Assembly: GCA_022539475.1 (NCBI GenBank)
Contig: VCMS01000092.1
Span: forward strand, 62,001-126,000
DNA from: Gracilaria domingensis
Taxonomy: Eukaryota > Rhodophyta > Florideophyceae > Gracilariales > Gracilariaceae
Direction: 5' to 3'
DNA: 64,000 nucleotides
This document shows, one piece after another, positions 24,470 through 63,759 of this stretch. The notes under the pieces are model-generated. The model was not told where the DNA came from and did not search any database. It worked only from the letters and a program-made list of their open reading frames with translations. Numbering within the stretch: position 1 is the first letter of the stretch; each line of letters opens with the position of its first letter. The position numbers and the translations under genes are program-made.

Positions 24470-24907
24470 TGTGGCCCGTCAAACGGTACACGGACAGGTG
24501 TGCGTGTCTACACTCCTGCGTTGTGCCCAACGCAGCGGTAATACAGAATATAGTTTAAAAATGCTTTATTATAGTTAATCCTATCTTAGGTTTAGTTAGT
24601 TTTCTACGCAGAATCTACCTTGCGTGTGGCCAGGAGGCGCCGCACTACAAGCAGGGCGACATGAGATTGTCTACTTAAGTGGCAGAGAGCGCTCCAACGC
24701 TGACCACCCGACCTCATCGGCTGTCAATTGCCAAATTCGTGGTCACCCACAGGAGGCGCCTGCGCTTGCGCAAATACACGTGCATTCCACGCTGTGTACT
24801 GCGTTGCGTAGGCGCCCCCTGTGGCGGCATATGCGCTTAAAGTATCTACCACCTACGCCTCTTATAGGCTAGTACGGTAGATACAACGCATCCATTGGCC
24901 AAGCCAA

Positions 24908-24997
24908 CCGTACCGTCGATTCCCGCCTGGGATCGACGGTGCGGTTGTGCATAAAAGGGCCGGAGCAGTCGCCTCCGACTCAACTCCGGCCAGACCA
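24908..24997 (+). promoter_or_regulatory. LTR core promoter: palindrome, TATA-like box, R hairpin
   Basis: A perfect 9-bp inverted repeat (ACCGTCGAT ... ATCGACGGT) lies just upstream of a TATA-like CATAAAAGG at about 24950. A second inverted pair follows directly (GGCCGGAG ... CTCCGGCC, about 24958-24991) and would form a hairpin at or near the RNA 5' end. The same arrangement recurs in LTR2 (about 33240-33330) and LTR3 (about 41360-41450). The last upstream ATG lies before this promoter, and none follows until gag. Confidence 0.75.
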
Positions 24998-25585
24998 CTT
25001 CCCTTCGACGACCTCCCCCCCCCACCCCCCCACAACCTTCCAACCTCTCTCCTTTTCCCTTTGTCGTCCTCAACCTTTCCTCATCCCCTACTTCTCTCTC
25101 TACTTCTCCCCTTGGCGGCCTGGTCTCACCGCCCTCCCTCGCTCACTGCCACTCACACTGACCCTCTGTCTGGGCGCGTCCTGTGTGAGTAGGCAAAGCG
25201 TCTGCACCACCCTTCCATTGGGTTAGACTTGTGAAGGCGTGACTCTGCCTTTCATTATCCGCTTTGTTTGGCCTTTCTTGTCTCTTTTGTTCCCTTCGTT
25301 GGTTTCTTTCGCTGTTGTTGTTCCATCTGCCATTCTGTCTTTCCCGAACTACCGTTGTTGTTGTCATCTTCGTTTTTTCCCCGTTTCTTGCTGTTTGGCG
25401 GCTTTCTGCTGCCTGCATCCGTTCTATTGCTTCCCGTTTCGGCCTTGGTCCCTGGTTTTGCTGGTTCTTTCGCGTTGCGATTCTGTTCCTCACATAGTGT
25501 TGCTTTGCACCTGTTGTTGCTAGACGCACTGTGTGATACAGCGTAAGGTTGTCCTTAACCTACGGCCCTGAGGCAATCGTTCAAG

Positions 25586-26086
25586 AGTAGGTTGTCTACA
25601 GCTACTCTTTTGGCATTTTGTGTGACTACTAACGTTTCGTTTGTTTCACATCAAGTGCCAAGGTCTATCGTTTCATCCAGCGAGTATTCGTCCGTGGTCG
25701 ATCCGGACGAGCGTATAGAAGAAGTCCCCGATCCCGTTCCTCAGATAAAGAAGTCGGCTGTTCAGCCTCTTGACGGGCCACGCGAGCGCCACATCTTTCG
25801 TGTAGCCCACCAGAAGGAGAAGCGCCGTCGTAACCCCCCGCCACGTAAGCAAATCCTAAAGCGCTGCCGCGTCTGCGACATTAAGGTTCAGAGTCAACGC
25901 CAGCTTGAAGTTCACCAAGCAGGCCGACGCCATCGTAGAGCCGTACGTCGCGCCAACTACACCGAGCAGGACATCCACTGCGAGGTTTGTGACATCAAGT
26001 TCTCCGAAGCTCACGATCTGCGTGTGCACTACAGAAGCCGTCGCCATCGTGCGACCCTTAGGAAGAAGAACAATACTATCTATTAG
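25586..26086 (+). CDS. LTR-encoded two-finger C2H2 protein with splice-created start codon (copy 1)
   Basis: Predicted join of base 25586 with 25656-26086, 143 aa. The frame has no ATG anywhere in the DNA. A 69-nt intron (25587-25655) with donor GTAGGT, branch point TACTAAC at 25627-25633 and acceptor CATCAAG joins A to TGCCAAGG. That creates ATG in frame, giving a start MPRSIVSSSEYSS. The C-terminal half has two zinc fingers of form C-x2-C-x12-H-x5-H (CRVCDIKVQSQRQLEVHQAG... and CEVCDIKFSEAHDLRVHYRS...). This spacing is that of U1/matrin/JAZ-type fingers, many of which bind double-stranded RNA. The two fingers look like an internal duplication. The rest is basic. A role in binding element RNA or in regulation is inference. 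Intron use must be shown with RNA. Confidence 0.75.
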   Translation, partial: SRLSTATLLAFCVTTNVSFVSHQVPRSIVSSSEYSSVVDPDERIEEVPDPVPQIKKSAVQPLDGPRERHIFRVAHQKEKRRRNPPPRKQILKRCRVCDIKVQSQRQLEVHQAGRRHRRAVRRANYTEQDIHCEVCDIKFSEAHDLRVHYRSRRHRATLRKKNNTIY

Positions 26087-26371
26087 AGCACAGGTCTCTC
26101 TTTTCATTGTCCAGTTGTGACACATTTCTATTCATATCTCATTACATATATTATCCTTGTTTGTTCTTCTTTATCTTCTCGCCTATCGTTTGGTATCCCT
26201 CTTCTGTTCTTGTGTTCGTGCTTTGTTGTTTGGCTTCTGCCGCACTCTATCTACGTAAGCTTATATTTGGCTAGTGCTTCTTCGTCCGATTGGACTGGTA
26301 CTCTACGAGAGCAAACTTTATTTTCATTGTTTTTGCCCCCTTTGGCTGTAACCGCCGGCGCCGTCACCAAA

Positions 26372-29350
26372 ATGGCGTTTTCATGGTACTCTCGCCGAGG
26401 TGCCCTTGGCCCCGATACTATGGACACCTCGACGCCTCTCTTCGACGGATACAATTCCGATGTTCGTCGATTTCTCTTTTTCTTCGAGAACGTTGCCACC
26501 CGTGGAAAGCCTGATGAGGAGCGTTCCTCCGAAATCTTGGGCTTCCTAAGTGGTGACGCCTTCGATCATTATTATAATAATTTCTCTGTAGATGGCGTGC
26601 TCACCCCGAACGCGGCCAACTACATATCAGTTAAGAAGTCCCTGCTCGATCGCTTTGGCGCTGCTGAGGAACCCGAGGAGTATATCCGAGAAGCTGTGAC
26701 TGCCCGTTTGGACTACGGTGATCTCCTTGGTTCCCTCCAGCGCATGGACGCTTGCTTCGACAAGGCCGAGTTCAACGCGAAGGCCAAGTTCGGCCTTCTC
26801 CGTAAAGCGGTTATGGAGTACGCAGACCTAGCTCAGTTTGTGATATTCCGCGGAGCAAGCGACTATAAGTCGTTGAAAGACCTCATCAAATCCTTTGTGG
26901 CCGGCAAAAAGGCCCTCGGAGCAGGTGGTTCACTGGCGTTTATGCCTCCTCCGAAGAAAGTGTTACAAAGGAGGCCCGTCGACCCTTCTGATAGGGATCC
27001 CACTGCAGACAAGGTGGATCAGCTAGCTAGTCAGCTTGCAGAACTCACTCTCTTGATGAAGAAGAAGTCAGGACCACCTCCGAAGGCTGATGGAGAGCAA
27101 GTTTGTGGCTACTGTCAGAAGCCTGGTCACTTTTCTACTCGCTGTCCACAGAATCCGCATCGCGATACGCGTTGTGGGGGCTGTGGAAAGATGGGACATT
27201 CCATCGCAACGTGTTGGAAGCGCCATTCGGAAAAGAAGGTCCGTTTCGATGCCGAAAATCAGAAAGAAATCCCGGAAGTTCCCAGACCCAACCAAGTTTC
27301 TGTAGTCACCGAGGATGACGTTCAGGATCGCGAGACTGTAGCGATGGCCAAACGAGCCGCTGATGGCGCCCCATTGCCAAAGCAGGCCCGCCTGGAACAT
27401 CGGGTTGGTGTCAAGGAGCTTCTGAACCCAGCAAGCGACACCCCATTTCGCTTGATTCGCTCAGCTACGCGTAATCGATCCGGGAAGCCTAAGAAGGCCT
27501 CCACAAAGAAGCTCTCTGGTAAGTCAATGCTCCAGGAGCACGCCGGAAAGTATAACGTAATGGAGGAGCTCGCGAATGCCCCGACCGGGCTCACATTCGG
27601 TCAACTCATTCGCGGGGACGCCGATGCGGCCAAGAAAGATCTGCGTCGAATCATCTCTGGCCGTTCAACGACCAGAAAGGTCAATGCGACCCAGGTCGAG
27701 CGTGAAAACTCTCGTCTTAAGGTTGTGCCTATTACAGTCTATGGGACCATGACCCAAGCCTTCTTGGACTCTGGCGCTGTCCCGAATCTAATGTCAGCAG
27801 AACTAGCGGACCATCTGCTACTGACACCGAACCCCACTGAAAGGACGATTAAAGTAGCTGATGGCAATGTTGCCCGCATTCGTGGTACTCTAGAGGGCGT
27901 TCCTGTAAGGTTCGATGACCTCCGAGTATCCCTCGAGTTTCTTGTTATCGAGAAGCCCCCCTTCGATGTAATCATCGGGAACCCCACGCTAGAAAAGCTG
28001 CATGCCTGTATCGATCTTGGTACACAAGAAGTCACCATGAGTTACAACAAGAAGCACGTCGTTATAGGACTCGACTCCGATCGTTCCGGATTAGAAGCAT
28101 TTGTCCCGTTGTCTGAGACAGATAGCGAAGATTTCACGTCAGACTCTGATGCTATCCCGTCTGACTCTGAAGATGAGTCGGAGGACTTTGCTAACCTCCC
28201 CCTTCCAAAGCAGCGAACAACTGGTGGCGCCGAAGTGACCCTAGTGGCAGTAATGGAAAGGGATGGGGACGCAGGATCCCAGGATGGCGAAGAGGAGAAC
28301 GATGGTGAGGAAGAACCCGCCAATGTGACAGCGCAGCCCACCCAAGCCGGGCCGTTCGAAGGACCTCAAGTATCTGACCAAGCCCGTCGACCGACTCAGG
28401 CTGAAGATTCCAACGGCCCTAACTTCACCTGGCGTACCATCGGGACTCAGATTCATCTGGATAGTTTGACCGCGGAGCGTGGGGAGAACCCTCATGCAAA
28501 TAATGTGCATATTGCCGGACCCGATGGCCCACAAATTCCTCCAGAGGGAGAAAGGGTGGCAGTCGGACCAGCACCGCGTCAGCAATCCCAGCTGATCTCC
28601 CAGTATGATGATGACGAGGATCGACGATTCGAAGACGCGGAGGAAGAAGTGCAGGCAGATCCCCCTGTCGAAGAAAGGTCCGGACCCAATCCCTCCTCCT
28701 TCCAGAGCGAGTCTACGGATACCAGCGTACAGCCAGAAGATGTGAATGTCGTGATTCCTACAAGTATTGCACCCAGAGCTAATAACGCCAGCGAGGACAG
28801 TGAAGTCCGGCCTCCTGACGATGGGCCCGTAGGTGAAAGCCCGGCGGAGTTCCCAGACGGTAGTGACGATGAGGACGACTCCTCACCGGAGGAAGTAGAC
28901 CTCATTGGCTCACCACTCTACCGCGACTCTGACCTTACCATCCCGATCAGAGACGAAGTAGTTCTGCTTCCTTTAGCCGAAGGACAGTCAGTTACTGACT
29001 TCTTGGACGTGCGGGTTCAATTGCGACATCCAGTACCGTCACCCGCGCGTCCCCCTCATCTAGAAGCACAGAACTTACCGCTCAACCGCGTAGGAATGCT
29101 GGAGGACGACGACTCCGGCGGTTATGTCATAGCATTTGAAGAAGAACTACCTCCGGACGAAATCGACGCCCGGACCCCGGGAGATGATGAACATTCACAA
29201 GACCCAAGCCGCGACGAAGAAGTTGTGGCCGAGCCTACGTGCCCAGCGCAAGACATTGAGTATTCTCTGCAAGATCCAATTGCGCAAGATTCACTCGGTC
29301 GCACGCTCGACCGACGTGATTACCCCCCCACACCAACAAGGAGGAGGTGA
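26372..29350 (+). CDS. Gag-protease-acidic linker of copy A
   Basis: The start is the ATG at 26372, the first ATG after the LTR promoter; the frame is open further upstream but without ATG. Residues about 1-230 are Gag capsid-like helical sequence. Two CCHC zinc knuckles (C-x2-C-x4-H-x4-C) lie at about 245-281. An aspartic protease follows with FLDSGA near residue 464. A long acidic, disordered linker of about 400 residues then leads toward RT. The frame stops at 29350, because a C run at about 29323 has seven C where copy B has eight. In copy B the frame runs on into RT. The break may be a sequencing error, a mutation or, less likely, a programmed shift. Confidence 0.9.
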   Translation: MAFSWYSRRGALGPDTMDTSTPLFDGYNSDVRRFLFFFENVATRGKPDEERSSEILGFLSGDAFDHYYNNFSVDGVLTPNAANYISVKKSLLDRFGAAEEPEEYIREAVTARLDYGDLLGSLQRMDACFDKAEFNAKAKFGLLRKAVMEYADLAQFVIFRGASDYKSLKDLIKSFVAGKKALGAGGSLAFMPPPKKVLQRRPVDPSDRDPTADKVDQLASQLAELTLLMKKKSGPPPKADGEQVCGYCQKPGHFSTRCPQNPHRDTRCGGCGKMGHSIATCWKRHSEKKVRFDAENQKEIPEVPRPNQVSVVTEDDVQDRETVAMAKRAADGAPLPKQARLEHRVGVKELLNPASDTPFRLIRSATRNRSGKPKKASTKKLSGKSMLQEHAGKYNVMEELANAPTGLTFGQLIRGDADAAKKDLRRIISGRSTTRKVNATQVERENSRLKVVPITVYGTMTQAFLDSGAVPNLMSAELADHLLLTPNPTERTIKVADGNVARIRGTLEGVPVRFDDLRVSLEFLVIEKPPFDVIIGNPTLEKLHACIDLGTQEVTMSYNKKHVVIGLDSDRSGLEAFVPLSETDSEDFTSDSDAIPSDSEDESEDFANLPLPKQRTTGGAEVTLVAVMERDGDAGSQDGEEENDGEEEPANVTAQPTQAGPFEGPQVSDQARRPTQAEDSNGPNFTWRTIGTQIHLDSLTAERGENPHANNVHIAGPDGPQIPPEGERVAVGPAPRQQSQLISQYDDDEDRRFEDAEEEVQADPPVEERSGPNPSSFQSESTDTSVQPEDVNVVIPTSIAPRANNASEDSEVRPPDDGPVGESPAEFPDGSDDEDDSSPEEVDLIGSPLYRDSDLTIPIRDEVVLLPLAEGQSVTDFLDVRVQLRHPVPSPARPPHLEAQNLPLNRVGMLEDDDSGGYVIAFEEELPPDEIDARTPGDDEHSQDPSRDEEVVAEPTCPAQDIEYSLQDPIAQDSLGRTLDRRDYPPTPTRRR
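26384..26402 (+). other. Candidate primer-binding site
   Basis: TGGTACTCTCGCCGAGGTG begins right after the LTR end and would pair with a tRNA 3' end in ...GAGAGTACCA. It lies inside the gag coding region, since gag starts 12 nt upstream within the LTR. I cannot name the tRNA. Confidence 0.6.
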
Positions 29351-31155
29351 TTCTAGAACGGATCTCTCATCTCCCAAGGGATAGACGGGTGGACCTCCTC
29401 GCTGTTCTGGATAACTTGAATGTCATAGCATGGTCCTTGTATGATCTTAGGCCCTCTGACGTGCCGGTAACGCACAGGTTTGACCTCAGTGTCGAGACCC
29501 CAATTCATTCGAAGGTCCGAAGGCTACCCCCAAAGCATGACGACGTTGTTCGGAAAGAGGTCGACAAAATGTTGTCCGCCGGGATCATCAAGCCGTCCAC
29601 CTCTCCTTGGTCCTTCCCAGTTGTCATCGCACATAAGAAGGATGGAAAGCCCCGGTTCTGTGTCGACTATCGGGGTCTGAACCAGGTCATGACGCCCGAC
29701 AGGTGGCCCCTGCCAAACATGGAACAGATTTTTGACGATTTGGGTGGTTGTTCGTTCTTCACGACCCTAGACCTTTTCTCCGGATACTGGCAGGTGCGCA
29801 TGGCCCCTGACTGCAAAGAAATGACGACTTTCGTTTGTCGTCAGGGAACCTTCCAGTTTGAAGTCATGCCTTTTGGTCTCATGAATGCCCCAGCCACGTT
29901 TCAAAGAATGATGGACGCGGTCCTTCATGGGGTGGAGTTTGCTCGCGTCTATATAGACGACGTTGTCATCTTCTCGAGAAGCCTGGAAGAACATTTGTAC
30001 CACCTAACCAGGGTGCTCGAGATCCTTGCAAGTCATGGTCTGAAGATAAAAATATCCAAATGTGATTTTGCACAACCCCGTATCAAACTGCTTGGTCACA
30101 TCATCAACAAGGAAGGCACTTCGGTTGATCAAGACAAGATCGACGTCATCCAAAAGGCCCCCGAACCATCGACGGTAACCGAGCTCCGAAGTTTTCTCGG
30201 TCTAGCCAGTTATTATCGAAGGTTCATAAAGGATTTCGCAGATACGTCAGCAGTATTGCATGCTGCCACTACAGGGAAGGGAAAGCTGAATTTCACCAAT
30301 GAGATGAAGACAGCGTTTAATGATCTAAAGGGAAAGTTAGTATCCCCGCCGGTCTTAGCATTTCCCGACTTTGAGAAGCCTTTTAGAGTTGAAACCGATG
30401 CTTCTTCAGTCGCGCTTGGTGCCGTTCTGTCACAAAAGAAAGAGGACGGAATGTATCACCCAATTCAATTTGCCAGTCGCACGCTTAATGCCGCCGAGCG
30501 AAAGTATTCTACTTGCGAGAAAGAGGCCCTAGCCGTGGTCTTTGCCTTGAAGAAGTTTCGCATGTATCTACTCGGAGGTCTCCCCTTTGAGCTTGTTACG
30601 GACCACCAAGCTCTGAAGTATGCATTCCAAAAGAAGGACATTCACGGGCGCCTAGCCCGATGGATGGACCTGCTAGCGGAATACGAGTTCGTTATAGTCT
30701 ATAGATCTGGCGATAAGAATCGGGCTGCCGACTATCTCTCTCGCTTTGCCGTTGGGGATCCACCGGAGCCGGATGATGACGTGTCTGTTGTACTGAATGC
30801 AACGGACGAGGTCTATGACTTGGAGCCCTTCTGCGCGCACATCAAGTTGTACCTTGCCGCCTTTTCTTTTCCTGAAGAAGACCCTAAGATCCGCGCTTTG
30901 GTTAAGAGGAATGCGAAGAAGTTCTTCCTTTGGGAAGGTCTTCTCTATCGCCGTACCAAGAAAGGATTAAGAGTGGTACCCTCTGTAAGCGAGCGCCGTG
31001 GCATCCTCTCATCCTTTCATGATGACATAGGACATTGGGACTTGGAGGCTACTAAGGATCTGGTCCAGTTCCGATTCTGGTGGCCTGGAATGTACCCCGA
31101 CATCGTTTCATATGTTCGCAGTTGTGAGGGGTGTCAGTTCACCACCCCTGCTTAA
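29347..31155 (+). CDS. Reverse transcriptase / RNase H / integrase start of copy A
   Basis: This is the continuation of the polyprotein after the C-run frameshift, so its first ATG is probably not a true start. RT shows the fingers and palm motifs and the catalytic YIDD box (near 29949). RNase H follows with ETDASS and TDHQAL. The tether and the integrase HHCC zinc domain (H...GHWD... C-x2-C) come next. The frame stops at 31155, where a small indel, compared with copy B, shifts the reading into the next frame inside the integrase. Confidence 0.92.
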   Translation: MILERISHLPRDRRVDLLAVLDNLNVIAWSLYDLRPSDVPVTHRFDLSVETPIHSKVRRLPPKHDDVVRKEVDKMLSAGIIKPSTSPWSFPVVIAHKKDGKPRFCVDYRGLNQVMTPDRWPLPNMEQIFDDLGGCSFFTTLDLFSGYWQVRMAPDCKEMTTFVCRQGTFQFEVMPFGLMNAPATFQRMMDAVLHGVEFARVYIDDVVIFSRSLEEHLYHLTRVLEILASHGLKIKISKCDFAQPRIKLLGHIINKEGTSVDQDKIDVIQKAPEPSTVTELRSFLGLASYYRRFIKDFADTSAVLHAATTGKGKLNFTNEMKTAFNDLKGKLVSPPVLAFPDFEKPFRVETDASSVALGAVLSQKKEDGMYHPIQFASRTLNAAERKYSTCEKEALAVVFALKKFRMYLLGGLPFELVTDHQALKYAFQKKDIHGRLARWMDLLAEYEFVIVYRSGDKNRAADYLSRFAVGDPPEPDDDVSVVLNATDEVYDLEPFCAHIKLYLAAFSFPEEDPKIRALVKRNAKKFFLWEGLLYRRTKKGLRVVPSVSERRGILSSFHDDIGHWDLEATKDLVQFRFWWPGMYPDIVSYVRSCEGCQFTTPA

Positions 31156-32227
31156 GTACCGGCCAGGACAAAGAGCCCCATTGACTGGCCTATTTCATAC
31201 ATTCTCTGTGGACTTCGCCGGTCCTCTTCCGGCTACCAAGAATGGCAACCGTTTTGCTCTGATTGGTGTAGAACACATAACAGGATGGCCTATTGCCGCG
31301 GCCTACGGTAATCAGACCTCTACCACCGTCATTCACTTTGTTCGATCTCAGATCGTTTCCCCGTTTGGTCCCCCGCTGACGATCGTGTCCGACAACTTCA
31401 GTTCCTTCAAAGCCAAGGCAGTCGAGGCATACATGGAAAGTAAGAAGATATCCCTCAAGCCCACCATGGCCTATGCCCCTATGTCTAATGGCCGTGCTGA
31501 AAGAATGGTTGGAACATCAAGAAATCGATTGCCAAGACAATCTTCAATAAGGGACAAGAATGGGATGAAGCCCTCGAGCAAATACTTTACGGATACAGGA
31601 GGCGCCGGCTGGGTGGCGGGGTTTTCTCCTTTTGAGCTCATGTATGGCACAGTCCCGCGGATGAGCTCAGACGACCTACCCCCGCTCATCGTAGATCCAA
31701 CCCCCACTAATCGTCATCATGAACTACTTGCAAATTCCGCAGGCAGAGCTTCCAGAGTTCTATCTCAACCCAATCGACAGACGACCCCAAGTCCGGGCAC
31801 CGGTTCAACGTCGGTGATGAGGTCTTGGTGATACATGGGAAGGCTCTGATCCCAACGTGAAATGGCCTGCCTTCAGTCAAAATTCTACGGACCCTGTAAG
31901 GTGGTTAAGGCCAGGCACCCCCGATATGTCCTAGTGTCCCCTCATAATCGCTACACTAGAGAAGGGGTCCACGCCCGCCGGCTCAAGCGGTATCATCGCC
32001 GACCAGTTCATCTGCAGGACGAGGTGGTAGCCACTATTACGGAAGGCGAAGACACCCCTGTCCCATATCCCACTCAGATCACTGTAATGCCACTCCGCGT
32101 TGACTACAATATCCTCACTGCACCCCACCTCTCGTGTCACTTTATCATTGGAGGGAAAAGCATACATTCATGGCTTAGCCCTTTGAACGTCTCTATCCGG
32201 AGGTGGAAAGGGTTACCTGGACGCTGA
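31112..32227 (+). pseudogene. Integrase and C-terminal extension of copy A, frameshifted
   Basis: The integrase catalytic core is visible: first Asp in FSVDFAG, second in VSDNF (near 31387) and Glu in GRAERM (near 31496), the D-D-35-E pattern. At least one further single-base loss near 31516 disturbs the frame relative to copy B, and others follow. Pieces of the GP(F/Y)-like C-terminal module (GPCKVVKARHPRYVLV) and the terminal extension lie in different frames. Copy A therefore cannot make an intact integrase as assembled. Confidence 0.85.
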
Positions 32228-32591
32228 CGCATGCCTCACTCGCCCTGTTCTCAATCTCGGGGCCCGTTCTTGAGTCGTAGAGGAGGATCTATCTTAAGAA
32301 CATTATTTCGACGTGTGCACCAGAACTACGGCAGCAATATCGAGCCAGAATTCGCGGTATATCTTTACCACCATGCAGTCTCCTTGCATGGGCATCTCCC
32401 AGAATCGCAATTCTACATACAAGAGACTCAGGACCATATTTCGCACTATGCTCGCACAGGAATCGCTCGGATACTCAGCTACACCCCCGACCCAGAGAAG
32501 CTAGCAGTACCCTTTCTCTTCCCTAACACCCACCGAGAATTAGCCCAGTACTTACGAACGCCCGGCGTAGCGTCGTTTGGGTTTGTGGTCG

Positions 32592-34714
32592 TGTGGCCCG
32601 TCAACGGTAACACGGACAGGTGTGCGTGTCTACCACTCCCTGCGGTTGTGCCACGCTAGCGGGTAATACAGAATATAGTTTAAAATGCTTTATTATAGTT
32701 AATCTATCTTAGGTTTAAGTTAGTTTTCTACGCAAGAATCCTACTTGCGTGTGGCCAGGAGGCGCCGCACTACAAGCAGGCGACAATGAGAATTGATCTA
32801 CTTAAGTGGCAGAGAGGCGCTCCAACGCTGAACNAACGCCAGCGGTAATACAGAATAATAGTATTAAAATGCTATTAATTAATAGTTAAATCCCTATCTA
32901 TAGTTTAGTTAGATTTATCTACGCAGGATTCTACCCTTGTCGTGTGGCCACGAGGCGCCGCACTACAAGCAAGGGCCGAACATGAGAATTGTCTAACTTA
33001 AGTGAGCAGATGAGCAGCATCCACGCTGACCACCCGAACCTTCATACGAGCTGTCAATTAGCCAAAATATCAGTGGTCACCCACAGGAGGCGCTGCGCTT
33101 GCGCAAATACACGTGCATTCCACGCTGTGTTACTGCGTTGCGTAGGCGCCCCCTGTGGCGGCATATGCGCTTAAAGTATCTACCACCTACGCCTCTTATA
33201 GGCTAGTACGGTAGATTACAACGCATCCATTGGCCAAGCCAACCGTACCGTCGATTCCCGCCTGGAATCGACGGTGCGGTTGTGCATAAAAGGGCCGGAG
33301 CAGTCGCCTCCGACTCAACTCCGGCCAGACCACTTCCCTTCGACGACCTTCCCCCCTACCCCACCACAACCTTCCAACCTCTCTCCTTTCCCTTTGTCGT
33401 CCTCAACCTTTCCTCATCCCCTACTTCTCTCTCTACTTCTCCCCTTGGCGGCCTGGTCTCACCGCCCTCCCTCGCTCACTGCCACTCACACTGACCCTCT
33501 GTCTGGGCTCGTCCTGTGTGAGTAGGCAAAGCGTCTGCACCACCCTTCCATTGGGTTAGCCTTGTGCAGGCGTGACTCTGCCTTTCATTATCCGCTTTGT
33601 TTGGCCTTTCTTGTCTCTTTTGTTCCCTTCGTTGGTTTCTTTCGCTGTTGTTGTCTATCTGCCATTCTGTTTTGCCTGAACTACCGTTGTTGTTGTCATC
33701 TTCGTTTTTTCCCCGTTTCTTGCTGTTTGGCGGCCTTCTGCTGCCTGCATCCGTTCTATTGCTTCCCGTTTCGGCCTTGGTCCTGGTTTTGCTGGTTCTT
33801 TCGCGTTGCGATTCTGTTCCTCACATAGTGTTGCTTTGCACCTGTTGTTGCTAGACGCACTGTGTGATACAGCGTAAGGTTGTCCTTAACCTACGGCCCT
33901 GAGGCAATCGTTCAAGAGTAAGTTGTCTACAGCTACTCTTTTGGCATTTTGTGTGACTACTAACGTTTCGTTTGTTTCACATCAAGTGCCAAGGTCTATC
34001 GTTTCATCCAGCGAGTATTCGTCCGTGGTCGATCCGGACGAGCGTATAGAAGAAGTCCCCGATCCCGTTCCTCAGATAAAGAAGTCGGCTGTTCAGCCTC
34101 TTGACGGGCCACGCGAGCGCCACATCTTTCGTGTAGCCCACCAGAAGGAGAAGCGCCGTCGTAACCCCCCGCCACGTAAGCAAATCCTAAAGCGCTGCCG
34201 CGTCTGCGACATTAAGGTTCAGAGTCAACGCCAGCTTGAAGTTCACCAAGCAGGCCGACGCCATCGTAGAGCCGTACGTCGCGCCAACTACACCGAGCAG
34301 GACATCCACTGCGAGGTTTGTGACATCAAGTTCTCCGAAGCTCACGATCTGCGTGTGCACTACAGAAGCCGTCGCCATCGTGCGACCCTTAGGAAGAAGA
34401 ACAATACTATCTATTAGAGCACAGGTCTCTCTTTTCATTGTCCAGTTGTGACACATTTCTATTCATATCTCATTACATATATTATCCTTGTTTGTTCTTC
34501 TTTATCTTCTCGCCTATCGTTTGGTATCCCTCTTCTGTTCTTGTGTTCGTGCTTTGTTGTTTGGCTTCTGCCGCACTCTATCTACGTAAGCTTATATTTG
34601 GCTAGTGCTTCTTCGTCCGATTGGACTGGTACTCTACGAGAGCAAACTTTATTTTCATTGTTTTTGCCCCCTTTGGCTGTAACCGCCGGCGCCATCACAA
34701 AAATGGCGTTTTCA
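32592..34714 (+). repeat. LTR2 (middle LTR), about 2.1 kb, damaged at its left part
   Basis: It is about 210 bp longer than the other LTRs. Bases 32592-32833 are a poor copy of the LTR start with many small indels. After an N at 32834 the LTR sequence restarts at about LTR position 65, again with many indels until about 33060. From there on it matches LTR1 and LTR3 closely. This looks like a bad assembly join made from low-quality reads. Confidence 0.85.
33917..34417 (+). CDS. LTR-encoded two-finger C2H2 protein with splice-created start codon (copy 2)
   Basis: Predicted join of 33917 with 33987-34417, 143 aa, identical in protein to the copies in LTR1 and LTR3. Here the 69-nt intron (33918-33986) has the stronger donor GTAAGT. 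The branch point TACTAAC and the acceptor are unchanged. Confidence 0.75.
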   Translation, partial: SKLSTATLLAFCVTTNVSFVSHQVPRSIVSSSEYSSVVDPDERIEEVPDPVPQIKKSAVQPLDGPRERHIFRVAHQKEKRRRNPPPRKQILKRCRVCDIKVQSQRQLEVHQAGRRHRRAVRRANYTEQDIHCEVCDIKFSEAHDLRVHYRSRRHRATLRKKNNTIY

Positions 34715-40924: not shown

Positions 40925-42836
40925 TGTGGCCCGTCAAACGGTACACGGACAGGTGTGCGTGTCTACACTCCTGCGTTGTGCCCAACGCAGCGGTAATACA
41001 GAATATAGTTTAAAAATGCTTTATTATAGTTAATCCTATCTTAGGTTTAGTTAGTTTTCTACGCAGAATCTACCTTGCGTGTGGCCAGGAGGCGCCGCAC
41101 TACAAGCAGGGCGACATGAGATTGTCTACTTAAGTGGCAGAGAGCGCTCCAACGCTGACCACCCGACCTCATCGGCTGTCAATTGCCAAATTCGTGGTCA
41201 CCCACAGGAGGCGCCTGCGCTTGCGCAAATACACGTGCATTCCACGCTGTGTACTGCGTTGCGTAGGCGCCCCCTGTGGCGGCATATGCGCTTAAAGTAT
41301 CTACCACCTACGCCTCTTATAGGCTAGTACGGTAGATACAACGCATCCATTGGCCAAGCCAACCGTACCGTCGATTCCCGCCTGGAATCGACGGTGCGGT
41401 TGTGCATAAAAGGGCCGGAGCAGTCGCCTCCGACTCAACTCCGGCCAGACCACTTCCCTTCGACGACCTTCCCCCCTACCCCACCACAACCTTCCAACCT
41501 CTCTCCTTTTCCCTTTGTCGTCCTCAACCTTTCCTCATCCCCTACTTCTCTCTCTACTTCTCCCCTTGGCGGCCTGGTCTCACCGCCCTCCCTCGCTCAC
41601 TGCCACTCACACTGACCCTCTGTCTGGGCTCGTCCTGTGTGAGTAGGCAAAGCGTCTGCACCACCCTTCCATTGGGTTAGCCTTGTGCAGGCGTGACTCT
41701 GCCTTTCATTATCCGCTTTGTTTGGCCTTTCTTGTCTCTTTTGTTCCCTTCGTTGGTTTCTTTCGCTGTTGTTGGTCTATCTGCCATTCTGTATTGCCTG
41801 AACTACCGTTGTTGTTGTCATCTTCGTTTTTTCCCCGTTTCTTGCTGTTTGGCGGCCTTCTGCTGCCTGCATCCGTTCTATTGCTTCCCGTTTCGGCCTT
41901 GGTTCCTGGTTTTGCTGGTTCTTTCGCGTTGCGATTCTGTTCCTCACATAGTGTTGCTTTGCACCTGTTGTTGCTAGACGCACTGTGTGATACAGCGTAA
42001 GGTTGTCCTTAACCTACGGCCCTGAGGCAATCGTTCAAGAGTAAGTTGTCTACAGCTACTCTTTTGGCATTTTGTGTGACTACTAACGTTTCGTTTGTTT
42101 CACATCAAGTGCCAAGGTCTATCGTTTCATCCAGCGAGTATTCGTCCGTGGTCGATCCGGACGAGCGTATAGAAGAAGTCCCCGATCCCGTTCCTCAGAT
42201 AAAGAAGTCGGCTGTTCAGCCTCTTGACGGGCCACGCGAGCGCCACATCTTTCGTGTAGCCCACCAGAAGGAGAAGCGCCGTCGTAACCCCCCGCCACGT
42301 AAGCAAATCCTAAAGCGCTGCCGCGTCTGCGACATTAAGGTTCAGAGTCAACGCCAGCTTGAAGTTCACCAAGCAGGCCGACGCCATCGTAGAGCCGTAC
42401 GTCGCGCCAACTACACCGAGCAGGACATCCACTGCGAGGTTTGTGACATCAAGTTCTCCGAAGCTCACGATCTGCGTGTGCACTACAGAAGCCGTCGCCA
42501 TCGTGCGACCCTTAGGAAGAAGAACAATACTATCTATTAGAGCACAGGTCTCTCTTTTCATTGTCCAGTTGTGACACATTTCTATTCATATCTCATTACA
42601 TATATTATCCTTGTTTGTTCTTCTTTATCTCTCGCCTATCGTTTGGTATCCCTCTTCTGTTCTTGTGTTCGTGCTTTGTTGTTTGGCTTCTGCTGCACTC
42701 TATCTACGTAAGCTTATATTTGGCTAGTGCTTCTTCGTCCGATTGGACTGGTACTCTACGAGAGCAAACTTTATTTTCATTGTTTTTGCCCCCTTTGGCT
42801 GTAACCGCCGGCGCCATCACAAAAATGGCGTTTTCA
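40925..42836 (+). repeat. LTR3, 1912 bp
   Basis: It starts TGTGGCCCG and ends TTTTCA, followed at once by unrelated DNA (GATCGGCTC). This right edge fixes the LTR end for all copies. It shows that both the zinc-finger region and the gag ATG (42825) belong to the LTR. Here gag reads only ten codons before a stop in the flanking DNA. Confidence 0.92.
42040..42540 (+). CDS. LTR-encoded two-finger C2H2 protein with splice-created start codon (copy 3)
   Basis: Predicted join of 42040 with 42110-42540, 143 aa, same protein as in LTR1 and LTR2. The intron (42041-42109, 69 nt) has donor GTAAGT and branch point TACTAAC. Transcription from this LTR would enter the neighbouring DNA transposon. Confidence 0.72.
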   Translation, partial: SKLSTATLLAFCVTTNVSFVSHQVPRSIVSSSEYSSVVDPDERIEEVPDPVPQIKKSAVQPLDGPRERHIFRVAHQKEKRRRNPPPRKQILKRCRVCDIKVQSQRQLEVHQAGRRHRRAVRRANYTEQDIHCEVCDIKFSEAHDLRVHYRSRRHRATLRKKNNTIY

Positions 42837-50949: not shown

Positions 50950-53900
50950 AGTATCAAGGACGATGACTCACTGTTATATTTGTCTTGCTTCGTACAACTG
51001 CGTATGCCGGCCACCTGGAAAACCCGTCTCCTTGAGTACTTTGAAAAGGCACAGGAGAATAGCTAACGGTCATCGACATAGATTTGGCCTACAACCTTTA
51101 CCGAGGGGTCCGAAGTTCACACAGAACTCTGCAGATATAGAGAAAGCCCTTCATATGCAGCCGTTTTCCAACTATGTACTCACAGCTGACGAGGAGCTTA
51201 GATGCGTGTCATTTGGGTTCGCGAAAGTCTCAAGTAGTACTCCGCGTGGGAGACTACTCTCCACCTCTGTCTCATCTTGACGCCTGCCTACCGGCTTTGA
51301 TCAATACTCCATTTACAGGGGCCAACAATGTTCGTGTTTCATGCCCAGAAGGTGAGGCGATCTCAATGGTTTCTCTGTGTGCAAGACAACTTCGCACCAA
51401 CCTTTCATATGGCTGACATATTGTGGTCTTCCTTTTGACTACTGTGACTCATTAACACCCAATGCATCATCGAACACCTAACATCTCTCTCAAAACAACA
51501 GTCGGACCGTCTCAATTTGCTCATGATGGGCCTGATGCGTTTAGGGAGAGCGATAGCCGCCAGGCCGTAAGAAATGATGGAAGAGGTGAGAATGAACAAG
51601 TTGAAAGTTTGAACGATGTCAATGCCATTGATGATCAAAATTATGATACCGAGAGTAACAATGCTTTCGAAACAGCCAGTGCCGTTCACCACCATGTATC
51701 TCAAAGCTCTGAACAAATTGAACAGCCCTCACACGAGGAACTTTCGCAAACTGATGATATAGAAAGTAGTGACGAGTCGGAGACCGAGTCAATTTCATTG
51801 GTGACGGAACAAAATGGGGCAAGACTTGAAGACTGTGAATGGGGAGTAGGGGTCTGGAAGGGGGACTCATTTGAATCGTTTATGGATTGGTGCACCGATA
51901 ATAAGAAATGGATTGAACTTGGCGTCGAGTTTGGTTTGAAGGCAACGGTAATGGGAAAAATCCTCCGAAACATTGATGCACCATACAAGTCTTGACTCAC
52001 AATCAAGCGCAATATGATCAAATATGGAGATGGTCACACAGTGAAGTACTTGGCTTGCCCGGGGCATGAACTTCTCACCGTGGAAAACGTTCAAAATGAC
52101 GAGGGAACTTGTGGACAAGTAGAACCTTGCTCTGTTTGCCTCAAACTAGGTCAAGTTCCGCCAGCTCCTGATGTCTTCGAGTACATACCACTGCTACCTC
52201 GTTTGCGAAAGTGGGTGTCTTCTGCTCATACCGTGAAGCACCTTTTCGAATATAGGAAGCAGATTAGCGTTCGCAGAGCAAATCAGCAATCATCTGGGAA
52301 CTACTTCGAAGACTGCGATGAGGGCACACTTGGCAAATCTGTACTAAGAACTCGAGGTGGCGAAAAAATGGGAGAATTCGATATCTTTTTGGATGTGTCG
52401 ACTGACGGATTCGATGTCTTCTCGAGAACCCAGTACAATTGTTGGCCCATAATTGCCATGGTACACAATCTTCATCCTTCGTTAAGATTTCTCATGCGCA
52501 ACGTCGTCCCTTTGGGGTTCATAAAGGGCCCAAGAGAGCCTGTTCGTTTGGATACGTTTCTGTTGCCGCTAGTAGAAGAACTGAAGTCTATCAATAATGG
52601 TCCGGGCACCACGATAAAGTTTGCGGATGGAATGGAAAGGAATGTTAAAGTACACCTTCTTTGGGCAAAGGGTGACGATCCAGCGTCACAGAAAGTCGGA
52701 GGTTTGGTTGGAGCTAAGGGAAAGCGGATGTGTCGCTTCTGTGATATTGAGGACATTATTCTTCACCACGCAAGTCATATTACTTTCCTTCGAAAGTTAA
52801 AGTGGCAGATGATCGTTCTAGAAGACGATTGCGTTGGAAAAGGTGCTACGATCCCTCACGGCTTCCTGCGCGTTCTAAGTCAAGTATTGAGCGAAAGTGG
52901 ATTGAACTTGCAGAGAAGAACATATCCGATAATCGTCGTAAGGAAATCATCAGAAGCTGCGGAATCACTCGACACACATCTTTGTATGATATTGAGACGA
53001 TGGTTCCCTTTCATTTCCTACCACTGGATGTCATGCACATCACGAAGAACATGGTACGTTCGATAGTGATGCCACTCTGGAAGGGAGATCTTACGGTCGC
53101 GGTGAATGCTCCGGAATCGAGTCCAAACATTTCCGAAGAATTTGTTGTCCTCGAAAGATCGTGGTCCAGTATTGATGCGGAGATAAAAGCGCTTGGTTGC
53201 AACACGTCTGAATCCATGTTCGGGAGAAGGATGCGGGAGACATTATACTATAATCAGTGGAAAGCTGAAGAATGCCGAATGTTCATTATCTACTATGCGG
53301 TCGTGCTATTGAATGGTCATATTCCCCATAAGTATCTTCTAGGAATCCGCAAGCTATCGGATCTGTTGGAACTCTGCTTTCGATCTCAGCTTTCTAATGC
53401 TGATCTAGAGCAGGTGTACCGACTTTCAGTGGAATTCTTCGAACACTACGAGAAGAACTATTACAGATGTGAAGAACAGCGCGTGCATCTCTGCAGATCT
53501 ACCGTTAATGCGCTATTACATCTTGCCGAGAACATTGAAAGATGCGGCCCGCTTTTGCTTTGCAGTCAGTTTTGGATGGAACGCTACGTAGGATTTGTCA
53601 AGCAACGATTGAACGCTACAAACAGAGCAGCAGAATCCTTAACAGAGAATTCAAAGCTTCTTGAATCGTATCCACTTTTCTTTGAAGATCATTTTGTGGA
53701 GAAATGTGGGGAGAATGGCGAAAGCGGTGATTACGAAGGCATGGGAGCTGAAATTGGAAGTGCGGCCGGAACTCTCTTTCTAAGTCCCAAAAGAACCGTC
53801 ACCCTTGACTCAAGTATTTTTGGACCGTGGAATATAAAAGACTTGCTAATGCCTTACGCAACACAGACATGGTGTAGCTGTACCCCTGCAGATCTGCAAG

Positions 53901-62797: not shown

Positions 62798-63060
62798 CGT
62801 CACTCGAGTGAGACGCGGCACCCACGAGAGAGGAGAAGACACGCGATAGCGTTGAAAAGCCACGCGAGTGGTCGAGCTAAGAACCAGTGTGCACCAGTGT
62901 AGTGCAACGCTCATCTATGAGAAGTTTGGCCGGACTTTTTCATAATTCCCGTTCAGAGGTTTGCTTGGTACACACCAGTATATGACTAGTAATAACTAGT
63001 AGCTGCCATCGAGAGGGTTTGGACACATGGGACACAGTGGTGCTGATGGGAGGTTGATCA
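62798..63060. other. Spacer or U3 of the next LTR element
   Basis: No gene is visible. It may already be U3 sequence of the LTR whose end I place at 63743, because no left edge can be seen with one copy only. Confidence 0.3.
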
Positions 63061-63743
63061 CTATACGTGGGCGTTTGCCACAAGTAGTGGGTGTTTTAGT
63101 TAATATTATTTATTAATTTCGGGCCACGCACTACTTAGCGCGCCGGCGTCGCCGGCGTCGCGCCGAGTAAAGTTCCCAAACCAGGGTGATCCTACTTCAG
63201 GATCTCAGCTCTTGCCTTTCTCGCCTTCGGCGGTGCACAAATCTTTAGCGGTGGGAATCCCCGTTGCAACGGTTCGGCTATCCACCCTGCGTCCCCTAAG
63301 AAACCCAATTGTGGGAGTGTTCACCGCTTTTGTCACATTTCGACCCTGTACAGGGAACCCCCGGTTATACGCCGTATCCTTTCGCCCTTTTCTTCTTGAG
63401 TTCACCACACCTACGTGGGTGCCTCTCCTCTTTTCCCTTCCTTCTCCACTTCGTGGTACCGATCCTCTAGAGAGGTACACTCCACACACGTGGTTTGCTT
63501 TTTCAGCTCAACTCTCTACGCTCCGTCGTGATAGTTTGGCCCCGGTCTTACACTCGGCTAGCCGTGCCATTCCAGAGACGCTCTGTTCGCTGGCTGCCCT
63601 CCGTAGAGGAAGATCCCGAACGTCTTCGTGGTGTTTTCCTGCGTGCAGGCATTTCATTACAAACTGCTCTCCCGACCTAGAAGGTTAACTCACTTGTGTG
63701 TTCCCTCTTTGAGGTTCGTTCTTTTAGAAGCTCCCGTGTAACA
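63061..63743 (+). repeat. Putative 5' LTR (R-U5) and leader of a further LTR retrotransposon
   Basis: A+T-rich TATA-like sequence at about 63101-63119 is followed by a GC-rich hairpin-prone patch (GCGCCGGCGTCGCCGGCGTC, about 63140-63163). About 600 bp without any ATG follow. It ends in ...GTAACA, then two bases, then TGGTATGGATACC, a possible primer-binding site. The layout repeats that of the gypsy element at 24.5 kb. There is only one copy in the window, so the LTR nature is inferred. Confidence 0.45.
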
Positions 63744-63759
63744 GTTGGTATGGATACCG

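Follow-up and report, generated by a model that had tools for sequence, protein, structure and literature searches.

In the red alga Gracilaria domingensis, the long terminal repeat (LTR) of a Ty3/gypsy element appears to carry an accessory zinc-finger gene that splicing turns on, while the unspliced RNA leads to gag. We put the probability of this reading at about 0.78. The element lies in the 64,000-nucleotide stretch of DNA that was analyzed (the window), where the LTRs, their splicing and coding features, the predicted hairpins, and the retroelement frames are all on the forward (+) strand. Within the first LTR, a 69-nt intron (25587-25655), predicted from the sequence and from a comparison of copies, separates an A at 25586 from a TG at 25656-25657. 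Conceptual joining of the two, backed by the same comparison, gives a start codon at the junction (25586-25657). Judged from its sequence, the arrangement is real, conserved, and selected, and the segment 25587-25655 is predicted to be spliced out.

Self-comparison of the window delimited a 1914-nt LTR with TG...CA ends (24470-26383) and further LTRs at about 32589-34714 and 40925-42836, forming a tandem LTR-internal-LTR-internal-LTR array. No target-site duplication was found in the flanks of this array. A primer binding site (TGGTACTCTCGCC, 26384) lies directly 3' of the first LTR and, with the TG...CA LTRs, marks the element as Ty3/gypsy (Metaviridae). Profile matches identified a gag-protease frame (26372-29350), whose ATG opens the last 12 nt of the LTR, followed by reverse transcriptase, RNase H, and integrase frames over 29347-31831 (29347-31155 and 31112-31831). 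The resulting order of protease, reverse transcriptase, RNase H, and integrase is that of Ty3/gypsy elements (reverse transcriptase E 3.9e-33; integrase H2C2 3.5e-16); an rve match had an E value of 2.7e-7, slightly below its cut-off. Gag starts upstream of the primer binding site, and its frame runs through that site (26372-26400). Past the integrase, 31862-32659 holds two short frames of 121 and 142 aa that have no Pfam or NCBIfam match. Elsewhere, LTR matches about 8.1-8.8 kb apart were seen on C94, C526, C313, and C192 of G000, a spacing that resembles the window array. The LTR contains a TATA-like CATAAAAGG at 24950-24958, and its transcription would start near 24985. In the divergence profile, 24960-25019 differs by just 1-4% between the young and old lineages of copies described below.

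The original prediction had placed the A, the donor, the branch point, the AG, the TG, and the resulting ATG CCA AGG, and every one of these positions is correct. The donor is GTAGGT (25587-25592), the branch point is an exact TACTAAC (25627-25633), and the AG at 25654-25655 is the first after the branch. Exon 1 ends in a strongly conserved block (25559-25586) with an in-frame CTG at 25568 and a terminal AAGA; exon 2 opens with TGCCAAGG from 25656. The predicted joined product reads ATG CCA AGG in the zinc-finger frame (MPRSIVSS...). The same junction, also foreseen at 33917/33987 and 42040/42110, is present there around equivalent introns in the second and third LTRs (33918-33986 and 42041-42109), with the better donor GTAAGT in both. 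These two copies encode the same finger protein as the first, whose weaker donor GTAGGT occurs in 13 of 78 copies. As a stretch of sequence, the segment has what a U2-type intron needs (GT donor, branch site, AG, and host-like length), and the start codon has the properties of one created by splicing, with no AUG before splicing and a junction AUG in the frame of a conserved protein. An intron of the form GTRRGT-TACTAAC-AG with an A|TG junction arose at 0.0001 per shuffled leader, with the frame requirement excluded. It counts against splicing that the intron length is a multiple of three and that the intron is open in the finger frame.

Copies of the LTR gene were collected by a protein search of the element's own genome (77.9 Mb), which gave at least 151 matches (150 of 279 candidates scored). 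The 93 places that were read, 90 genomic (98 loci, with 8 duplicates) and three in the window, yielded 78 distinct sequences. Thirty-seven of these make up a young lineage, with at least 90% identity to the first window copy (W1), and the 41 others an old lineage with 55-81% identity to it. Five signals were scored: the A, a donor GTNNGT, TACTAAC, the AG, and the TG. All five are found in 62 of the 78 copies (37/37 young, 25/41 old), and A|TG in 71 (37/37 young, 34/41 old). Whether other copies retain A|TG where they retain the frame had been named as a test of the idea, and the outcome supports it. The young lineage passes throughout (37/37), and among the 13 old copies with an open frame and all finger ligands, ten keep A|TG and nine keep all five signals. 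The exceptions are L055, L056, L074, and L075. L055 (identical to L054) and L056 have an open frame, a GTG junction, and a TACTGAC branch point; because L054, L055, and L056 have the same 3' flank, they represent one insertion copied with its surroundings. In L074 the fingers are open and complete, yet the TG, the AG, and the branch point are gone, and in L075, again with open and complete fingers, the branch point is gone. L078-L080, which are one insertion given their common flank, lack the donor and also two of the eight finger ligands. Within the old lineage, there was no significant association between splice integrity and ORF integrity (Fisher p 0.51) or between gained leader ATGs and ORF decay (p 0.50). 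Old copies are mostly relics whose ORF changes fit neutrality, so losses of signals are to be expected there. A search of the genome with one young-lineage junction pattern of 27 bases, allowing up to three mismatches, revealed no copy that lacks the intron. Spliced RNA could in principle be reverse-transcribed, and the lack of such copies fits no splicing, a spliced RNA that is not packaged, or one that ends within the LTR. A separate match, L089 (G000:C420), holds the finger frame from residue 23 at 86% identity, with one stop and a different upstream sequence, and C356 has a match similar to it.

The leader is free of ATG in all frames over 24834-26371, the longest such stretch in the window, which makes the absence of an ATG from the zinc-finger frame a stronger observation than had originally been stated. 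On either strand of the window, no ATG-free stretch is longer than those of the three LTR leaders, and the next in rank measures 704 nt. In 20,000 dinucleotide shuffles of 24985-26371, not one was without ATG (mean 11.2 ATGs; 8 shuffles with two or fewer). ATG is also the sole trinucleotide of the 64 that is missing from 24985-26089 in each of six copies (two young, four old), and a young copy aligned with an old one differs from it at 167 of 654 sites in 24985-25655. This same interval, 24985-25655, has no ATG in 37/37 young and 18/41 old copies; the ORF has none in 36/37 young and 17/41 old copies. Among 81 distinct LTR 3' ends, the gag ATG is retained in 75, and the stretch from the ORF to gag lacks ATG in all 37 young-lineage ends. 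Since there is no ATG in 24834-26371, unspliced RNA meets the gag ATG (26372) first. As to the proposal that unspliced RNA can use that ATG alone, the gag ATG comes first in every young copy but one, where an ATG lies inside the finger frame; among the old copies, 23 of 41 have gained an ATG in 24985-25655.

Exon 2 (25656-26086, with the stop TAG at 26084-26086) encodes, with the joined A, a basic two-finger protein of 143 aa. Both fingers follow C-x2-C-x12-H-x5-H and are of the zf-met/JAZ type, scoring above both curated cut-offs (zf-met 7.3e-11, 42.5 bits, cut-off 21.2; zf-C2H2_jaz 3.3e-9, 37.1 bits, cut-off 22.6; two stretches each). Weak sequence matches in the PDB were to ZNF622 (E 0.0038) and the RNA-binding ZFa (E 0.0043). 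An AlphaFold2 model (three identical sequences; mean pLDDT 75, pTM 0.30) agrees with a pair of bba fingers. Foldseek matched it to no PDB entry at E <= 0.001 and placed DNA-binding C2H2 proteins at the top of its ranking. Known zf-met/JAZ relatives bind dsRNA, and by analogy we infer that the finger protein may do so too. Among 5.8 billion predicted proteins, a word-based search gave 25 candidates, none at E <= 0.001, and a viral contig search found no relative of the finger protein, so that in those two collections it is without relatives outside this genome. Its frame is maintained between the two lineages. In a comparison of seven young with ten old copies, dN/dS was 0.14 for the finger ORF and 0.09 over 25853-26086, which holds the fingers, against 1.48 and 2.41 in control frames and 0.83 for the intron when translated in frame with the fingers; the finger frame contained no gaps. 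Relative to W1, 42 of the changes in young-lineage ORFs are silent (17.6 expected) and 21 are replacements (43.4 expected); in the young-lineage introns, the corresponding counts are 2 (2.5 expected) and 6 (5.4 expected). For the old lineage (31 of 41 copies, compared with one copy), the ORF changes were 89 silent, 202 replacement, and 5 stop, with 84.8, 202.6, and 8.6 expected. Purifying selection on the exon-2 frame is clear, and coding constraint in the intron is undetectable at the small counts that the intron provides.

Taken together with the flanking 4 nt of exon 1 and 6 nt of exon 2, the intron is predicted to fold into two adjacent hairpins. Hairpin 1 (25583-25609) would lie over the donor and hairpin 2 (25610-25661) over the branch point, the acceptor, and the TG. 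With a z score of -5.9, this was the strongest fold of 47 leader windows, ahead of -3.8 at 25135. The same fold was predicted in ten copies (five young, five old; z -4.3 to -6.1), although in one of them the tip of hairpin 1 is shorter. Among three decayed copies, this fold was lost in two (z 0.4 and 0.8) and replaced by a different one in the third (z -2.8). Of the 62 paired sites, a single one differs between the lineages, where a U-A pair became U-G and pairing was retained, versus six of 17 unpaired sites (Fisher p 0.0003). There were no double compensatory changes in the hairpins, and the percentage paired, 95.4, equaled that of shuffles, while sliding the partners brought it to 36-48; covariation thus gives the hairpins no support. 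RNAalifold on all 40 sequences recovered hairpin 1 and missed hairpin 2. The predicted fold therefore rests on energy and site conservation. In HAC1/XBP1-type Ire1 introns, two hairpins present the splice sites in their loops; an intron of this type was rejected here, as the predicted fold places both splice sites in stems. Other structured leader windows are 25465-25555 (z -3.2) and 25135-25225 (z -3.8), and 25470-25529 is merely 4-5% diverged between the lineages.

Taken as a mechanism, transcripts begun near 24985 would, if unspliced, present no ATG for about 1390 nt, and scanning ribosomes would arrive at the gag ATG (26372). The same unspliced RNA would double as the genome. From part of the transcripts, the host spliceosome would excise 25587-25655, making A|TG the first AUG, and translation from it would yield the basic two-finger protein of zf-met/JAZ type. 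The two predicted hairpins would mask both splice sites and probably hold splicing partial, which would leave enough RNA unspliced. Retroviral donors are likewise structured, a comparable means of restraining splicing. It is conceivable, although we consider it doubtful, that the finger protein binds the very hairpins masking the splice sites in its own RNA; its abundance would then control how much RNA becomes spliced message and how much stays unspliced as genome. If so, this would be a small Rev-like loop inside an LTR, borne by every solo LTR too.

The main rival to a splice-made start is translation of the unspliced RNA from the near-cognate CTG at 25568, with the 69 nt as an in-frame N-terminal extension and the hairpin from 25583 pausing the ribosome. 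Hairpins at such a distance stimulate weak start codons, and hairpin 1 begins 13 nt beyond the last base of the CTG. The CTG is in frame in 35/37 young and 32/41 old copies, and the segment from it to the junction is open in 34/37 young and 34/41 old copies. The placement of A25586 and TG25656 within stems would also offer another cause for their conservation. However, coding constraint is not seen in this segment, where the counts are small, and three of the 37 young copies carry frame-shifting indels in it; in two of these copies, L088 and L097, the finger frame is broken too. Two further young copies, L039 and L040, have CGG in place of the CTG with the finger frame open. A CTG start would moreover leave the donor, the TACTAAC, the first AG, and the A|TG to a coincidence of about 0.0001, before frame is considered. 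Weakened by an intron without coding constraint and by L039 and L040, initiation at the CTG seems to us unlikely.

The hairpins might instead be a signal for packaging or dimerization of the genome, in which case the splice-like motifs would be incidental, or splicing would remove the signal and so block packaging of the spliced RNA. A strong predicted fold suits this, as does the lack of intronless copies, which is expected if spliced RNA is not copied. With incidental motifs, though, a conserved finger frame is left without a start and the exact splice-site consensus is unexplained, and with splicing that removes the signal, packaging is compatible with the accessory gene. We hold a packaging signal as the explanation to be quite improbable. 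Least probable is that the finger frame is an untranslated fossil in the LTR. The old-lineage copies do decay neutrally (31 of 41 examined), but the dN/dS of 0.14 between lineages, the mostly silent ORF changes of young copies, and the gap-free frame between seven young and ten old copies speak against a fossil.

Several known systems resemble a finger gene switched on by splicing in an LTR. MMTV Sag and other retroviral LTR genes are, like it, LTR-borne; MMTV Sag is expressed from the 3' LTR and has its own ATG. The original prediction knew of no LTR element that works in this way, which proved too broad a claim. For springer-subclade insect endogenous retroviruses (Metaviridae), the available part of the source describes an env spliced "from an AU dinucleotide" (PMC12992720). 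Read as AU|G, this is a start codon completed by splicing, so the principle of a splice-made start is already known in Metaviridae. Both are then gypsy-type elements with a splice-completed start. As far as that text goes, the springer env is a sub-genomic mRNA (PMC12992720), whereas here the intron, the start, and the whole gene are inside the LTR, with a 69-nt intron, an A|TG junction, and a zinc-finger accessory product. In the accessible portion of another paper, the AUG of Epstein-Barr virus EBNA-LP is generated by alternative splicing (PMC12451641); it shares the splice-made AUG and differs in being from a herpesvirus, with alternative promoter exons and no LTR. Cer1 CERV of C. elegans is a gypsy element that, according to the sections available, makes an accessory protein from spliced mRNA and uses unspliced RNA for gag-pol and the genome, as proposed for the LTR element here (PMC10309623). 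In those sections, unlike here, its predicted initiator ATG is downstream of the splice acceptor, there are several exons, and the role is genomic RNA export (PMC10309623).

As far as the literature searched goes (subscription papers were outside its coverage), what is new is an intron, start codon, and whole gene within an LTR, the zinc-finger product, the hairpin-covered intron, and the host group. If the reading of a splice-activated LTR gene is true, one long ATG-free leader would suffice for two proteins, with no need for leaky scanning or an IRES: retaining the intron would give gag, and removing it would give the accessory protein. A spliced regulatory gene would sit inside a red-algal LTR, in a group whose retroelement biology is, to our knowledge, little known. 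The splice-made start, as in insect springer elements, would seem to have arisen more than once, and every solo LTR would act as a scattered unit of promoter and gene. Gene finding based on ATG would miss genes of this type: the word-based search of predicted proteins turned up no relative.

A neighboring ABC-transporter frame is 79% identical, across 83% of its length, to one from the red alga Agarophyton chilense, the closest named among the 120 matches listed (the next named was at 35%), in keeping with a host in the Gracilariaceae. We take this species to be the same as Gracilaria chilensis. The male reference of G. chilensis has 0.372 introns per gene with a mean of 78 bp, and three other Gracilaria species have longer mean introns of 168, 342, and 462 bp in the reference columns, as given in the available part of the source (PMC12502185). 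In our genome-wide probe, a strict GTAAGT-TACTAAC-CAG pattern occurred 24 times, slightly above a control (16); two places are doubly listed, and one match is itself a copy of the LTR described here. Thirteen of the 24 were readable in the orientation tested, and seven of these join open frames, as assessed by eye and without a control. These seven host introns measure 64-95 nt, one exactly 69, and have the same make as the LTR intron; L100, L102, and L117 are the clearest. The host is thus probably intron-poor yet uses introns of this kind. Host kinases were rejected as a source of introns, as they are mostly single-exon. Elsewhere in the window there is a Transposase_21 frame at 52014-53066. 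A second ATG-free leader (63049-63749, 704 nt) ends at an ATG near the window edge and holds an ATG-less frame (63212-63688); it is perhaps the leader of another retroelement family under the same rule.
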